Assembly: GCA_025351485.1 (NCBI GenBank)
Contig: JANXVU010000077.1
Location: 1-51,208, forward strand
DNA length: 51,208 nt
DNA from: Candidatus Eiseniibacteriota bacterium
GTDB lineage: Bacteria > Eisenbacteria > RBG-16-71-46 > JACRLI01
Reading direction: 5' to 3'
A model generated the notes under the pieces. That model did no database searches. It was not told where the DNA came from and saw only the letters and a list, made by a program, of their open reading frames with translations. The position numbers were made by a program, and so were the translations under genes. The first letter of the stretch is position 1. Every line of letters begins with the position of its first letter. Shown piece by piece: positions 35,560 through 42,430 of this stretch.

Positions 35560-36486
35560 TCAGCGGGCCCGGCGTTCGAAGAAGTCCATGAGCGGGCGAA
35601 CGAAACTTTCGCCGGTATGAAGCGTGACCGTGTCCACCCGGGCTCGCGCCAGGTCCCGGCGGGTTTCTTCGATACGCTGCTGCTGGCGCGCCGCGTGTCG
35701 CTTCATCTCGGCCGCGTTGCCGGTGTCCACGGTGCGCCGGGCGCCGGTCTCGGGATCGATGACCTCGAGCACGCCCACGTTGGGCAGCTGCTCCTCGGCG
35801 CGATCGCGCACCCACAGCGCCACCACTTCGTGGCGCCGGTTCAAGAGCGACAGCTGTCGGACCGGCACCGGCTCGAGGAAGTCCGAAACCAGGAAGATCA
35901 CCGCGCGTCTCTTCACCAGGCGCCGCAACTGCTCCAGCGGGTCCTCCAGCCGGGTGGAATGCCCGGTGGCCCTTCCGGCCAGCACCTCGCGGATCATGCG
36001 GAGCGCGTGGTGGCGCCCCTTGCGCGGACGCAGGAACTTTTCCACGTGATCGCTGAACAACATGAGCCCGAGCTTGTCCTTGTTCTGCAGGGCCGAGAGC
36101 GACAGCACCGCGCACAACTCGGCCGCCAGGTCGGCCTTGAAACTGCCGTGGGTGCCGAAGCCCATGGAACCCGACACGTCCACCGCGAACAGCACGGTAA
36201 GCTCGCGCTCCTCCTGGTATTGCTTCACGAACGGCTTGCCGGCCCGGGCCGTCACGTTCCAGTCGATGCTCCGGACGTCGTCCCCCGGCATGTACTCGCG
36301 GACCTCGGCAAATTCGATGCCCCGTCCGCGGAACACGCTGTGGTATTCGCCCGAAAAGACCTCGTTCACCAGGCGGCGGGTGCGGATCTCCAGGCGCCGG
36401 ACCCGCCGGAAATTCTCCAGCGCAAGCAGTCCGGGGTCCGGCGGAGGCGGTCCGAAGACCAGGCGGCGGAAGAAACCTCCGATCAC
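35560..36486 (-). CDS. DUF58/VWA-type protein
   Basis: Cytoplasmic protein of 308 residues of the DUF58 family, always found next to MoxR ATPases. The signature is complete: RTRRLVNEVFSGEYHSVFRG, FAEVREYMPGDDVRSIDWNV, and a VWA-like core with DVSGSMGFGTHG and VIFLVSDFLEPV. The DxSxS metal site is present. The GTG start overlaps the moxR stop (GTGA). It ends one base before the next gene. The family is believed to be a substrate or partner for the MoxR ATPase in assembling metal-containing or membrane complexes; the precise role is unsettled. Confidence 0.92.
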   Translation of the reverse strand: MIGGFFRRLVFGPPPPDPGLLALENFRRVRRLEIRTRRLVNEVFSGEYHSVFRGRGIEFAEVREYMPGDDVRSIDWNVTARAGKPFVKQYQEERELTVLFAVDVSGSMGFGTHGSFKADLAAELCAVLSLSALQNKDKLGLMLFSDHVEKFLRPRKGRHHALRMIREVLAGRATGHSTRLEDPLEQLRRLVKRRAVIFLVSDFLEPVPVRQLSLLNRRHEVVALWVRDRAEEQLPNVGVLEVIDPETGARRTVDTGNAAEMKRHAARQQQRIEETRRDLARARVDTVTLHTGESFVRPLMDFFERRAR

Positions 36487-37466
36487 GGCACCTCGACCTG
36501 GTTCAGGATGCGCTGCGCCACTTCCTCGGAGGTCACCTCTTCGGCCTCCGCCTCGTAGGTCACGATGATGCGGTGGCGCAGGACGTCCAGGGCGATCGAC
36601 TTGACGTCTTCGGGGGTCACGTAGCCGCGGCCCCGCAGGAACGCATGGGCCCGCGAGGCCTGGGTCAGGCAAAGCGTGGCCCGGGGCGAGGCCCCGTAGG
36701 CGATCATGCCGGTCAGTTTCAGCCCGAACGCGGCCGGATCGCGGGTCGCCATGACCAGGTGCACGATGTACTCCTTGATCTTCTCATCCATGTAGATCCC
36801 GCGGACCACGCCCCGCGCCCGCAGGATGTCGTCGGTCCCCACCACCGTCTGCACCTTGGGGGCCAGGGTTCCGTGGCGCTCCAGGATCTGGTGCTCCTCT
36901 TCACGGGTCGGATAGCCCACCTTGAGCTTGAGCATGAAGCGGTCCACCTGGGCCTCGGGAAGCGCGTACGTTCCCTCCTGCTCGATGGGGTTCTGGGTGG
37001 CCAGCACCAGGAACGGGTCGGGCAGCGCGTAGGTCTCGTCGCCGATGGTGACCTGGTGCTCCTGCATGGCTTCCAGCAGGGCGCTCTGGACCTTGGCCGG
37101 GGCGCGGTTGATTTCGTCGGCCAGCACGAAGTTGGCGAACACCGGCCCGCGCTTGGCCGTGAAGGCGCCATCCCGGGGATTGTAGATCAGCGTTCCGGTG
37201 AGGTCCGCGGGCAGCAGGTCGGGCGTGAACTGAATTCGCTTGAAACTGCCCCTGACGGCCCCGGCCAGGGTCTTGACCGCCAGCGTCTTGGCCAGGCCCG
37301 GCACGCCTTCCAGCAGGATGTGGCCGTCGGCCAGCAGGCCGATGAGCAGCCGGTCCACCATGTACTTCTGGCCGACGATCACTTCGCCGATCGCGGCGGT
37401 GAGCTGACGAGCGAACTCGCTCTCCGCCTTCACCCGTTCGTTCAGCTCCTGGACCTGCTCCTGCAT
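36483..37466 (-). CDS. MoxR-family AAA+ ATPase
   Basis: AAA+ ATPase of 327 residues, family-typical length. Walker A is in LLEGVPGLAKTLAVKTLAGA (GxxGxAKT type), Walker B in NFVLADEINRAPAKVQSALL, and sensor 1 in VLATQNPIEQEGTYALPEAQ; the lid domain follows (GASPRATLCLTQASRAHAFL). MoxR proteins act as chaperones with VWA partners; here two such partners plus the DUF58 protein follow in the operon. AAAGGAG lies 8 bases before the ATG. It is the second gene of the operon, 27 bases after the first. Confidence 0.96.
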   Translation of the reverse strand: MQEQVQELNERVKAESEFARQLTAAIGEVIVGQKYMVDRLLIGLLADGHILLEGVPGLAKTLAVKTLAGAVRGSFKRIQFTPDLLPADLTGTLIYNPRDGAFTAKRGPVFANFVLADEINRAPAKVQSALLEAMQEHQVTIGDETYALPDPFLVLATQNPIEQEGTYALPEAQVDRFMLKLKVGYPTREEEHQILERHGTLAPKVQTVVGTDDILRARGVVRGIYMDEKIKEYIVHLVMATRDPAAFGLKLTGMIAYGASPRATLCLTQASRAHAFLRGRGYVTPEDVKSIALDVLRHRIIVTYEAEAEEVTSEEVAQRILNQVEVP

Positions 37467-37493
37467 TCGCTGCGCTCCTTTCGAGCCCCGCGG

Positions 37494-38408
37494 CTAAGGC
37501 CCTTGGGGGGCCGGTGGAACGATCTGTTCATCGGCGTCCCACAGACGCCGGGTTTCTGACATCCATTGCTGCCAGGTGGCGGAGTCCGGCTCCTGGGGCA
37601 GGTAGCGGCGCGCCTCCAGGTGGCTGATCAGCGCTCCCACGCGCGCCCGGACGGCCTCGGACGCGTCCGAGGAGGCGCCCCACGCCTGGAAAGCCGCCTC
37701 TCCCGTGCGGGTCCACGCGCCTCCGTGCCGGCGGGTTGATTCCAGTCGAATGTGCTCGATAAGCCGGTCCACGTTGATCTTGGTGGGCGGGGACAATTCC
37801 AGGACCCGAAGCCGCTGGTCCGCGACCTCCCCCGGGGAGGCGGGCGCCGCCCGGACGCCCTTGCGCGGCCGGGCCCGGCGGGACAGGAAGATCCCGATTC
37901 CCAGGGCCGCCAAGCCGGATCCAAAAGCCAGCAGGTTCCAGGTCCTGGGCCACAGGGAAACCGGCTGCAGGACCCGGATGGCCGTGGGGGCAAACACCAC
38001 GACCCGGCGGAGGCCGCCGCGCACCAGAGCCACCCGCAGTGTATCGATCGGGACAAGTCCTTCGCGCGTGGCCACCAGGCGCAGCAGCAGCCTTGCGTGC
38101 ATGGCGTAGCGGCCCCCGGGCTGGTCCCGGGTGGTCCTGCATTCATAACCCGTCTCGAGCAACAAAAGGTCTTTCTGGTCCTTCCACAGGGGCAGCGCCA
38201 CCTCTTCCCCCCCGGGGCTGCCCCATACCAGATGGATGTGGAGCTCGAAGGGTTGTCCACGGTGGGCGACTTCCGGCTGACTGTGGAGGGTTGTTTCCCA
38301 GAGCTGGACCTGGAGGCTGTCGGCCGGGGACGCCACCGGGCCGGCCGCAAGGGCGGTCGGGGCAGCCAGCAACAGCAGGCCGATCAGGGCAAAACGGGAC
38401 ACGGACAT
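37494..38408 (-). CDS. Exported single-span protein, first gene of the Bat operon
   Basis: Protein of 304 residues: signal peptide (SVSRFALIGLLLLAAPTALA), a beta domain of about 130 residues (PEVAHRGQPFELHIHLVWGS, RDQPGGRYAMHARLLLRLVA), a membrane helix (WNLLAFGSGLAALGIGIFLS) and a cytoplasmic helical tail of about 110 residues (KINVDRLIEHIRLESTRRHG, ATWQQWMSETRRLW). This is the same plan as the DUF4381-like and BatD proteins: periplasmic Ig-like part, helix, small cytoplasmic domain. No family was recognised. The ATG at 38408 has no Shine-Dalgarno sequence; a TATACT box lies 8 bases upstream, so the operon transcript is probably leaderless. Confidence 0.78.
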   Translation of the reverse strand: MSVSRFALIGLLLLAAPTALAAGPVASPADSLQVQLWETTLHSQPEVAHRGQPFELHIHLVWGSPGGEEVALPLWKDQKDLLLLETGYECRTTRDQPGGRYAMHARLLLRLVATREGLVPIDTLRVALVRGGLRRVVVFAPTAIRVLQPVSLWPRTWNLLAFGSGLAALGIGIFLSRRARPRKGVRAAPASPGEVADQRLRVLELSPPTKINVDRLIEHIRLESTRRHGGAWTRTGEAAFQAWGASSDASEAVRARVGALISHLEARRYLPQEPDSATWQQWMSETRRLWDADEQIVPPAPQGP

Positions 38409-38416
38409 GACTTGGC

Positions 38417-38444
38417 AGTATAGCGGCTGCGGCGGGCCGCGCAA
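38417..38444 (-). promoter_or_regulatory. Promoter of the Bat operon, leaderless arrangement
   Basis: On the minus strand TTGCGC (complement of 38439-38444), a 16-base spacer and TATACT (complement of 38417-38422) precede the ATG at 38408 by exactly 8 bases. Transcription would begin at or within one base of the start codon. Confidence 0.6.
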
Positions 38445-39204: not shown

Positions 39205-42200
39205 TTAGCGCAGGATTATGAGCTTGCGTTCGCCCAGATAGGGCCCGGCGCTGAGGCGGCAGAAATATACCCCCGCCGGCGCCAATGAACCGTTGGAGCT
39301 CCGCCGGTCCCACTCGACCGAGTGCGCGCCGGGAGTCTTTGGCCCTTCCTCCAGCCGGCGCACCAGCTGTCCGCTCACGTCGTAGATGCGGACCGAAACG
39401 AGCTCGCGGGAAGGCAGGGTGTAGGCGATGCGCGTATGGCTCGTGAAGGGGTTGGGACGGTTGGGCCCCATCTCAAAGCGGAGTCCGGCATGGCCCGGAG
39501 CGGGCGCAATTCCGGTCACGTCGTCGCACGGCAGCGCAGCCGGGTTCCTGGAGGGCGTCAATCCGACGCTCACCCACCGGGCGCGTGCCGGCACCCCGGC
39601 CGAGTCGACCACGAACAGCATGTAGTTGCCCGGCGGCGCAATGTTGGAATCCGCCGGGGCATCCGCCAGGATCACGCCGCTCGAGCAGAAGCGGGTCTTG
39701 AGCGGGATGTACTGCTGCTCCTCGTTGAATCCGTGGGTGGTCGAGGCGGGCCGGATCAGGCACACGTTCGACCTGGGGCCGACGATGCGCCAGTTGTCGG
39801 TGAAGATGGGGAAGTGCTCCCCGTAGGCCACGGTCGTCTTGACGCTGTCGACGCGCGGGACCGGCGCGAGCCCGTTGCCCTTGAAAAGGTAGGGCGGCTC
39901 ATAGATCGTCGCCGTGTTGAGGTCCGGCCACGTGCTCCCTCCCGCCGAAAGCACGCGCCCATCGGGCAGCAGCACCGCCGTGGAGTGATACGTTCGGGCC
40001 ATCGGTTCCGCCGCCAGCGGAGGTGTCCACAGGTGGGTTTTCGGGTCCCAGATCTGCGCGGCCCTGCGGGCCAGGGCCGGATCGTTGTTCACGCCCTCCC
40101 CTCCCGTCACCAGCACCTGTCCGTTGGGCAGCACCGTGAGGTTGTGCTGGTTGCGCGACAGCACCCTTTGCCCGGGCGCGGAAGAGCAGGCCACCCATCC
40201 CGTGGTGGAATCGTTGGGTCCGAACTCGATGTAAGCCGAGGAGTCGATGGCCGTGCCGCCGGAACTGGTGTTCCCGGCCACTTTGAGGATCTTGCCCGGG
40301 GCATACTCCACGGACGTCCCCAGCGGGAAGTGGCTCACCCACGGAGTGTAGCCCCACTGCCCGGTGCGCATGTTCAGCATCGGGCTCGGGGACTCATCCG
40401 CGTTCCAGCGGGTGGCGAAAAACAAGTTGCCCGAGGGCAGCAGGTGCATCGCGGGGTAGTTCTGCATCTGGATGGAAGTGTTCATCATGGTCCAGCGATT
40501 GGAGGCCGGGTTGTACATCTCGGGGGTGATGGCGATCACGCTCAGGAAGTGATAGTCGGCCGTGTGCCCGGACAGCGGACCGGGAGTATTGATCGTGGGC
40601 TGATGGTTCCAGCCGGTGTAGCCGGTGAACTGGGCGCTCCAGAGGTCGTTCGTGCCCCGGCCCTCGGTGACCAGGCTGGTGTCGCCCCCGAAGATGACCA
40701 GGCGGTCCCACTCGTCGTCGGCCACCATCGAATAGCCGAAGCGGGGCGGAGGCGGCGATGGGAAGGCAAAGTTCTGCCACCGGTAGGTGGTGTCCCCGCG
40801 GTCGTCGTCTCCCCGGATCAGCGCCCACAGATCGTTCTGCAGCCCTCCCGGACTGTTCCCGCCAAAGAAGAAGGACCGGCGCTCGTGCACCACGTTGGAG
40901 TAGACCTCCACGCTGCGCTGGATCTTGTCGTACGCGCCGCAGATCCACGCGCGAGGCGTAGGCCCGGAAAGCGTGTCGGCCACCTGGACCCACCGCAGCG
41001 GGCCGGAGAGCGAAAGCGCCCAGGCGGTGCGATCGGTGAAGGTGGCGTTGTCGGAGAGGCCGCCAAAGAGCAGCATGCGCTTATTGGGGCCCACCAGGTT
41101 GGGGCTGGGCTCAAGGATGCGGTGCTCCTTGGCGTGGTTCAGAAAGAAGGCGTTGGCCTCCAGGGCCTGCAGCGGATAAGTGGATTCCACATCCGGAGGA
41201 CCGGGATCGTAAACGGCCGCGTGGCCGAACCGCGGACCGGGGCCCGTTCCGAGCGGGTAGACCCTCTCCCAGCGCACCGGGTTCTCCCACAGGATCAGGC
41301 GCCAGGTGTCGGAGAGCGCGCTCCCGTCGGCCGACTGGCCCCCGTAGACGTACATGGTGTCCCCGGAGGGCAACACCACCGCGCTGTGCCCGCTTCGCGG
41401 GGCCGGGTAGCCCGCCACCGGGTCCGGGAGAGCGGAGATCAGGTTGATACGCCAGTGTTCCCCGGTGTCCAGGCCGTCGCGGGTCACCACCCGCACATCC
41501 CCCAGGGTGGTCCCATCGGGCGCCTTGCCGCCGAACACCACGGTCCTCTGGCGCCCCGCGTCGTAAACCGCGGAGTGGCGGTACCGGGCCGCGTCGTCGT
41601 CGTTGGCCCCGGGATCGAAGCGCAGGGTGCGGTCCAGGGCGAGCGGGGCCACCGTTCCGACCGGCGCTCTTGAACTTCCCCCGCGGCCTCCGAACACGCA
41701 CATGTGGTAGTAGATGTTCCCGGCCGTCGCCACCAGGTTTCCATTGCCGAGCATGGTGAGGGTGGGATAGTAGCGGCCCACGTTCATCGGGCGGGCGGCA
41801 GTCCATCGCTTGGTGACGGGATCAAAGATATCCGCGTGGTCCGTGCCCAGGTCAGAGAGTTTGGGGCCATCCATTCCGCCCGCGACCAGCAACCTGCCGT
41901 CGGCCAAGGTATGCTGGCCGGCGCAGAAGATCTGCGTGAGCGTGTCGGGCACGTGGATGTGATTGAACTTGAGATAGCCGGGGAGCGCGTAGTCTGCGGG
42001 GTCCCAGGCGTAGAGTTGCGCCGAAGCGCCGGAGGCCCACCACAGGACGAAGGTCGAGTCGCTTTTGCCGCGCAGCAGCGCCATGTGCACCGCGTTCTGC
42101 CTCGGATTGGCGCTGGAAGTGCTGTCCCCCCACCCCACCGGGCCCAGCCAGCGGCCGGTGGTGCTCAACTGGGCCGAGGAGACCGCAGTGCAGGTGAGAA

Positions 42201-42288
42201 GAGCGCATGCGGCGAGGAGAATGCCTGCGAATGCTCGGCCGTCGGGGGGCAAAAGGCCCCGCAGGCCGCCCTGGGGGGGGACGGACAT
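39205..42288 (-). CDS. Secreted copper radical oxidase (galactose/glyoxal oxidase type) with inserted second kelch propeller and FlgD-Ig tail
   Basis: Exported protein of 1027 residues. Signal peptide (AFAGILLAACALLTCTAVSS). The galactose/glyoxal oxidase propeller carries all copper-radical residues: FCAGQ (Cys about 122) and GRYYPT (Tyr about 174) for the Cys-Tyr cofactor, ARTYHST (Tyr 767, His 768) as axial Tyr and His ligand, and STTHGFNEEQQYIPL (His about 852) in the DUF1929-like C-terminal beta domain. Between VATAGN (about 191) and PEMYNPASNRWT (about 590) lies an extra block of about 390 residues with its own kelch repeats (HSAVYDAGRQRTVVFGG, HSAVVLPSGDTMYVYGG, FGYSMVADDEWDRLVIFGG). 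The last 85 residues are a FlgD-Ig sorting-type domain (NRPNPFTSHTRIAYTLPSRE). AAAGGAG precedes the ATG by 7 bases. Family members oxidise alcohols or aldehydes to give H2O2; the substrate here is unknown. Confidence 0.88.
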   Translation of the reverse strand: MSVPPQGGLRGLLPPDGRAFAGILLAACALLTCTAVSSAQLSTTGRWLGPVGWGDSTSSANPRQNAVHMALLRGKSDSTFVLWWASGASAQLYAWDPADYALPGYLKFNHIHVPDTLTQIFCAGQHTLADGRLLVAGGMDGPKLSDLGTDHADIFDPVTKRWTAARPMNVGRYYPTLTMLGNGNLVATAGNIYYHMCVFGGRGGSSRAPVGTVAPLALDRTLRFDPGANDDDAARYRHSAVYDAGRQRTVVFGGKAPDGTTLGDVRVVTRDGLDTGEHWRINLISALPDPVAGYPAPRSGHSAVVLPSGDTMYVYGGQSADGSALSDTWRLILWENPVRWERVYPLGTGPGPRFGHAAVYDPGPPDVESTYPLQALEANAFFLNHAKEHRILEPSPNLVGPNKRMLLFGGLSDNATFTDRTAWALSLSGPLRWVQVADTLSGPTPRAWICGAYDKIQRSVEVYSNVVHERRSFFFGGNSPGGLQNDLWALIRGDDDRGDTTYRWQNFAFPSPPPPRFGYSMVADDEWDRLVIFGGDTSLVTEGRGTNDLWSAQFTGYTGWNHQPTINTPGPLSGHTADYHFLSVIAITPEMYNPASNRWTMMNTSIQMQNYPAMHLLPSGNLFFATRWNADESPSPMLNMRTGQWGYTPWVSHFPLGTSVEYAPGKILKVAGNTSSGGTAIDSSAYIEFGPNDSTTGWVACSSAPGQRVLSRNQHNLTVLPNGQVLVTGGEGVNNDPALARRAAQIWDPKTHLWTPPLAAEPMARTYHSTAVLLPDGRVLSAGGSTWPDLNTATIYEPPYLFKGNGLAPVPRVDSVKTTVAYGEHFPIFTDNWRIVGPRSNVCLIRPASTTHGFNEEQQYIPLKTRFCSSGVILADAPADSNIAPPGNYMLFVVDSAGVPARARWVSVGLTPSRNPAALPCDDVTGIAPAPGHAGLRFEMGPNRPNPFTSHTRIAYTLPSRELVSVRIYDVSGQLVRRLEEGPKTPGAHSVEWDRRSSNGSLAPAGVYFCRLSAGPYLGERKLIILR

Positions 42289-42430
42289 CGGCTTGCTCCT
42301 TTCGAGGTGCGATCTCAAGGGGGCTCGGCAACCGGGGCCTGGAATCGGGTTCCCGTTCGAAGGAACTTTCCCCGCTCTCAGGCGGAATTGGCCCGCGGCC
42401 GCCGACGGCCGCTGGGCCCACAGACCATAA

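Follow-up and report, generated by a model that had tools for sequence, protein, structure and literature searches.

The nested-propeller oxidase of Candidatus Eisenbacteria, a mostly uncultured and seldom studied phylum, is a real and conserved architecture that is new within a known kind of enzyme and, as far as the literature searched shows, unremarked: a literature search for published accounts of nested propellers in copper radical oxidases found none. The reading that we favour, and hold to be rather probable when taken as a whole, is that of an active, T9SS-secreted GlxA-like oxidase whose kelch core gained, on one occasion, a six-bladed propeller that would act as a lid or docking module over or beside the copper. 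The anatomy of the protein, its residues, their conservation, the single origin of the insertion and the accompanying T9SS genes are established at the level of sequence comparison. The chemistry of copper radical oxidases is known to be set by a few residues around the copper, and a family in which a whole propeller stands beside that copper, and which is both diverse and expanded, would be a natural example of an insertion that possibly retunes an oxidase. It would also be a clean case of a single event by which one propeller came to lie inside a blade of another, and it would connect oxidative enzymes secreted by the T9SS, which are possible biocatalysts on polymers, with an uncultured phylum.

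The oxidase, its copper site and its probable secretion

On the minus strand, the gene occupies 39205..42318 of the window (the whole 51,208-nucleotide stretch of DNA that was analysed), where the open reading frame, its translation and Pfam matches define an insert-bearing copper radical oxidase of 1037 residues; all features described below are on the same strand. The start codon is TTG at 42318, and an in-frame ATG at base 42288, residue 11, corresponds to a protein of 1027 residues. Residues are numbered here from the TTG, and the sequence-only reading made earlier counted from the ATG (10 lower). A predicted signal peptide, judged by eye, runs from the ATG to about ...SSAQ (MSVPPQ...AFAGILLAACALLTCTAVSSAQ; 42170..42288). 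The first part of the host propeller (approximately residues 61-201; 41716..42138) contains Cys132, the second-shell Tyr183 and Tyr184, and was delimited from a family alignment and from the aligned sequences of GlxA and a bacterial galactose oxidase, whilst the second part, together with the E-set domain (residues 596-921; 39556..40533), was placed by Pfam and by sequence and fold matches in the PDB. The Pfam matches above cut-off comprise several kelch families, GO-like_E_set (PF09118) at residues 821-918 (72.0 bits against a cut-off of 25) and FlgD_ig at residues 964-1023 (36.1 bits against 27). The scores of FlgD_ig and TIGR04183 define a FlgD-Ig or T9SS type A sorting-like tail at approximately residues 952-1037 (39208..39465).

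In an alignment with GlxA and galactose oxidase (GalOx), the first-shell set is complete at the canonical positions. Cys132 (41923..41925), the thioether partner, corresponds to GlxA Cys121 and GalOx Cys228; Tyr184, the cross-linked tyrosine, corresponds to GalOx Tyr272 and is preceded by Tyr183 in the place of GlxA Trp288 (41767..41772 for the pair, aligned with RWYPT of GlxA); the axial Tyr777 and His778, both copper ligands (39985..39990), lie in the motif RTYHS; and the copper ligand His862 (39733..39735) lies in the motif STTHGFN of the E-set domain. Counted from the ATG, these are exactly the residues Cys122, Tyr174, Tyr767, His768 and His852 that had been picked out, in part approximately, from the sequence. 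The copper-site residues, Cys132 included, are kept in 14 of the 16 insert-bearing genes that have the N-terminal part, and position 183 is aromatic in all 16 carriers that show this part; conservation of the site in 14 of 16 carriers at approximately 34% host identity argues for active enzymes. The two remaining carriers keep the insert and are likely to be non-oxidising: in one (L014 313-3402) the cysteine is replaced and the axial tyrosine is changed to Phe, and in the other (L046 4859-7765) the cysteine and the cross-linked tyrosine are both changed to Glu. The insert can thus persist without oxidase chemistry.

In the PDB, GlxA and the galactose oxidases come closest, whether sequences or folds are compared. 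GlxA (Streptomyces lividans/coelicolor; PDB 4UNM), the best fold match, also combines a kelch propeller with an E-set domain, a Cys-Tyr pair and Tyr/His/His ligands, and in both proteins a second-shell aromatic residue stands before the cross-linked tyrosine (Trp288 in GlxA, Tyr183 in the window protein); GlxA is without the nested propeller, and the window protein adds a T9SS-type tail. The galactose oxidases (CAZy AA5_2, fungal and bacterial; PDB 1GOF and 9G8H) share the copper ligands, appear to match the core fold and give the strongest PDB sequence match, but their strand 2-3 loop bears Trp290 at the place where the window protein has the entry to its 390-residue propeller. Since the window protein scores 161.7 bits with the GlxA equivalog model NF052501, far under the cut-off of 800, it is classed as GlxA-like and not as GlxA; the glyoxal oxidase N-terminus (PF07250, AA5_1), at 21.0 bits, fell under its Pfam cut-off of 37.5. 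Counting along the sequence alignment places GlxA Trp288 directly before the cross-linked tyrosine (RWYPT), a W288A mutant of GlxA is named in PDB titles, and the second-shell aromatic role of this tryptophan has been described (PMC13094651). We infer that a GlxA-type second shell may leave the Trp290 loop free to take an insertion.

The C-terminal tail matches Por_Secre_tail (TIGR04183, T9SS type A sorting) with 27.6 bits against a cut-off of 23, and the genome of the window encodes both the PorU sortase (439 bits, cut-off 420) and SprA (498 bits, cut-off 200). A sorting tail above cut-off alongside PorU and SprA makes export of the oxidase through the T9SS most likely. The sequence-only reading had proposed a secreted, FlgD-Ig-tagged oxidase: the FlgD_ig domain is indeed present, and in the light of PorU and SprA the tag is most reasonably taken for a sorting tail of the T9SS type. 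The window protein has 95 matches in its own genome, most of them within the C-terminal tail. PorU and SprA are found on contigs C69 and C161 of this genome, which also encodes dozens of proteins with a FlgD-Ig/T9SS-like tail.

The insert: junctions and predicted fold

The insert (residues 203-595; 40534..41712) is recognised as a nested six-repeat kelch propeller by its GG...W repeats, AlphaFold2 models, Foldseek matches and a profile search of the PDB. It interrupts one host blade with approximately 390 residues between strand 2 and strand 3, and this blade is the one that carries the cross-linked tyrosine. The block (bases 40530-41712, residues 203-596) had already been noted for kelch repeats of its own, which are now accounted for by six kelch GG motifs at residues 210, 263, 326, 419, 486 and 544. 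At the entry junction (41686..41721), defined by alignment and by the spacing in relatives, host strand 2 leads into the first insert strand through G200, nine residues and GG210, and none of the 17 insert-bearing genes in which this spacing of Gly, nine residues and Gly-Gly can be seen departs from it. At the exit junction (40519..40569), which has similar spacing in relatives, the last insert strand, predicted at GHTADYHF (584-591), is followed by the host strand ITPEMY. A sequence match aligns the host strand NLVATAGNIYY with EVFTLGGSWSG of the bacterial galactose oxidase 9G8H and residue 202 with Trp290 of galactose oxidase (the Trp of GGSW); the insert therefore starts where galactose oxidase has this second-shell residue. 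Position 203 (41710-41712), at the start of the insert, is aromatic in 14 of 18 insert carriers, and this aromatic may belong to the second shell or may anchor a hinge.

When modelled alone with AlphaFold2 (7 aligned rows), the insert gave a mean pLDDT of 67.1 and a pTM of 0.73, with the first blade largely below 50. The model has approximately 22 strands in six blades (assigned from the strand list), and its last strand is placed for closing the ring. Foldseek matched it to KLHDC2, LZTR1 and the designed six-bladed SAKe6 (TM-score normalised by target mostly 0.61-0.72), and the insert profile matched 28 kelch-type chains in the PDB and no copper oxidase. Because of these kelch-ring matches, and with no copper oxidase in the profile search, the insert is taken to be a foreign kelch ring and not a set of extra host blades; duplication of host blades as its source was ruled out on the same PDB search. 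A separate six-bladed kelch propeller is thus supported by the predicted structure, at moderate model confidence. The KLHDC2/LZTR1-type and SAKe6 propellers share repeat type, blade number and fold with the insert; none of them is known to be a loop insertion within another propeller, unlike the insert of the window protein. The architecture would have a precedent in the triple-propeller protein DDB1, a eukaryotic scaffold without an enzyme site, in whose single chain propellers are interrupted by further propellers.

The full-length AlphaFold2 model (37 aligned rows) had a mean pLDDT of 75.5 and a pTM of 0.72. Foldseek ranked GlxA (approximately 920 columns) and galactose oxidases first for this model, and the six-bladed kelch protein KLHDC2 was also matched lower in the list (TM-score by target 0.65-0.73, approximately 400 columns). 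In the Foldseek superposition on GlxA the rmsd was approximately 17 Å, with a TM-score (target) of approximately 0.56, and over the GlxA and galactose oxidase matches together it was approximately 17 Å or more, so that neither a normal host ring nor the location of the insert over the copper is established by the model. Possible reasons are confusion of the structural alignment by the repeated blades or poor modelling of the host ring. The earlier proposal of one propeller inserted into a loop of another is supported for the insert, which alone and within the full model matches a separate, closed six-bladed kelch ring; a normally closed seven-bladed host ring around it is a possibility.

Distribution and single origin of the insertion

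Relatives were sought in 47 genomes of the phylum and their full regions were then fetched. The insert, roughly 355-450 residues long, was found at the same point in approximately 18 genes, all of them from the order of Candidatus Eisenbacteria to which the window belongs. A chimera of assembly was ruled out, the same insertion being present in approximately 18 genes from separate genomes. GTDB contigs were also scanned with two short patterns, and 80 of 215 loci were kept: the insert carriers were named Candidatus Eisenbacteria, with 374-417 residues at the point in readable genes, whereas the insert was absent from the 72 proteins at 68 loci outside Eisenbacteria among the 80 kept, which have 0-33 residues there. 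These 68 loci belong to Acidobacteriota, Myxococcota, Gemmatimonadota, Actinomycetota, Pseudomonadota and others. The flanks of the block had been said to be adjacent in ordinary family members, which were held to be without the block, and these 72 proteins, read through the junction, agree in being without the block and in having the flanks nearly adjacent. A profile search of the relatives and three other phyla (approximately 750 genomes) found the full-length architecture in Eisenbacteria only; the non-Eisenbacteria matches all begin at profile position 516 or later, that is, in the C-terminal half of the host. The contig scan and the profile searches each cover a sample of genomes. The architecture had been called unusual, which is right in that ordinary members are without the block; it is no one-off, being a clade-wide feature of Eisenbacteria.

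When a maximum-likelihood tree was built from the host part alone (49 rows, 443 columns), a branch with 100/100 support set the 16 full-length insert carriers apart, which amounts to a single change on the tree, and insert-less paralogues of the same order and class (L061 and L062) fall outside this clade. One clade at 100/100 and an entry linker of the same length in 17 of 17 genes point to a single, ancient domain insertion. In 104 of 105 pairs the insert shows lower identity than the host (mean 25.9 versus 33.5%), as expected for a recognition part. Stand-alone kelch proteins, which are common in Eisenbacteria genomes, are a plausible source of the insert.

Several further observations were made on the family and its surroundings. 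Long kelch proteins outside the oxidase family are abundant in the phylum and are possible donors, and one of them (L051 8503-11193) adjoins an insert-bearing oxidase. One genome (G022; L033, L044, L047, L050 and L054-L060) shows a strong expansion of the family: approximately eight of its insert-bearing paralogues are near-complete and three are partial. TAG-interrupted or frame-split insert-bearing genes occur at L066/L042 (G028 contig 62) and L052 (G019 contig 52), and are either decaying copies or sequencing errors.

Proposed function and alternatives

In the proposed scheme, the ancestor of one order of Candidatus Eisenbacteria would have received, once, a complete six-bladed kelch propeller in an AA5-like core. 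The core would form the Cys132-Tyr184 cofactor, hold one copper through Tyr184, Tyr777, His778 and His862, and oxidise a primary alcohol or hydrated aldehyde with O2, yielding H2O2; an active alcohol or aldehyde oxidase is most likely, with the catalysis drawn from knowledge of the family. Its short linkers, the entry being of fixed length, attach the insert to the Trp290-equivalent loop, so that it would stand over or beside the copper face. Geometry and conservation suggest that, as a lid or docking module, the insert would select or hold a substrate that is probably a glycan or surface polymer, and that it probably helps to decide what reaches the copper; the built-in binding or gating domain of the sequence-only reading is thus kept as a hypothesis. 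Against the scheme as a whole stand the poor superposition of the full model on GlxA, the weak first blade of the insert model, the two carriers that have lost cofactor residues, the Tyr of the window protein in place of GlxA Trp288, and the absence of any substrate hint from the neighbouring genes. A more specific version, which we put forward tentatively as a possibility, is a ligand-responsive lid, in which polymer bound by the inserted ring would open or shape the copper site via the short junction at the Trp290-equivalent loop. If this version were true, the family would be the first among copper radical oxidases to have a propeller as an integral gate.

The insert might instead be a surface-adhesion or partner-binding module that is tolerated in its loop and has no effect on copper catalysis. 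Such a module would fit the abundance of kelch proteins from outside the oxidase family in the genomes, the faster divergence of the insert compared with the host, and the two relatives that have kept the insert after losing cofactor residues; the reading is nevertheless doubtful, as the junction falls at the second-shell Trp position of galactose oxidase and the entry linker has one length in 17 of 17 genes, which together suggest a constrained geometry near the active site. Loss of copper chemistry altogether, leaving a purely structural protein at the surface, would fit the same two relatives without cofactor residues, a further relative that is TAG-interrupted, another that is split over several frames, and the change of GlxA Trp288 to Tyr in the window protein. 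We consider it improbable, given that, at only approximately 34% host identity, most relatives have, like the window protein, the five first-shell residues and an aromatic residue in the second shell.

Least probable is that the extra repeats widen the host ring into one continuous larger propeller with no separate domain. All the repeats are kelch-like and the full model superposes poorly on GlxA (rmsd approximately 17 Å), as such a ring would allow, but the insert enters and leaves within a single host blade, has its own closing strand, matches six-bladed rings and has a profile unlike the host blades.

The oxidase has mostly housekeeping genes as neighbours (SHMT, RpiB, aminotransferase, phosphatase, Sua5/YrdC and MoxR), and no hint of the substrate was found among these neighbouring genes. 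No Pfam family matched the gene at 37494-38444; putative DUF58-type and BatD-like genes were recognised by eye beside MoxR on the minus strand (35560-38444). The MoxR-type ATPase itself, downstream of the oxidase at 36483-37466 on the minus strand, is the one gene of this group whose identity was confirmed.
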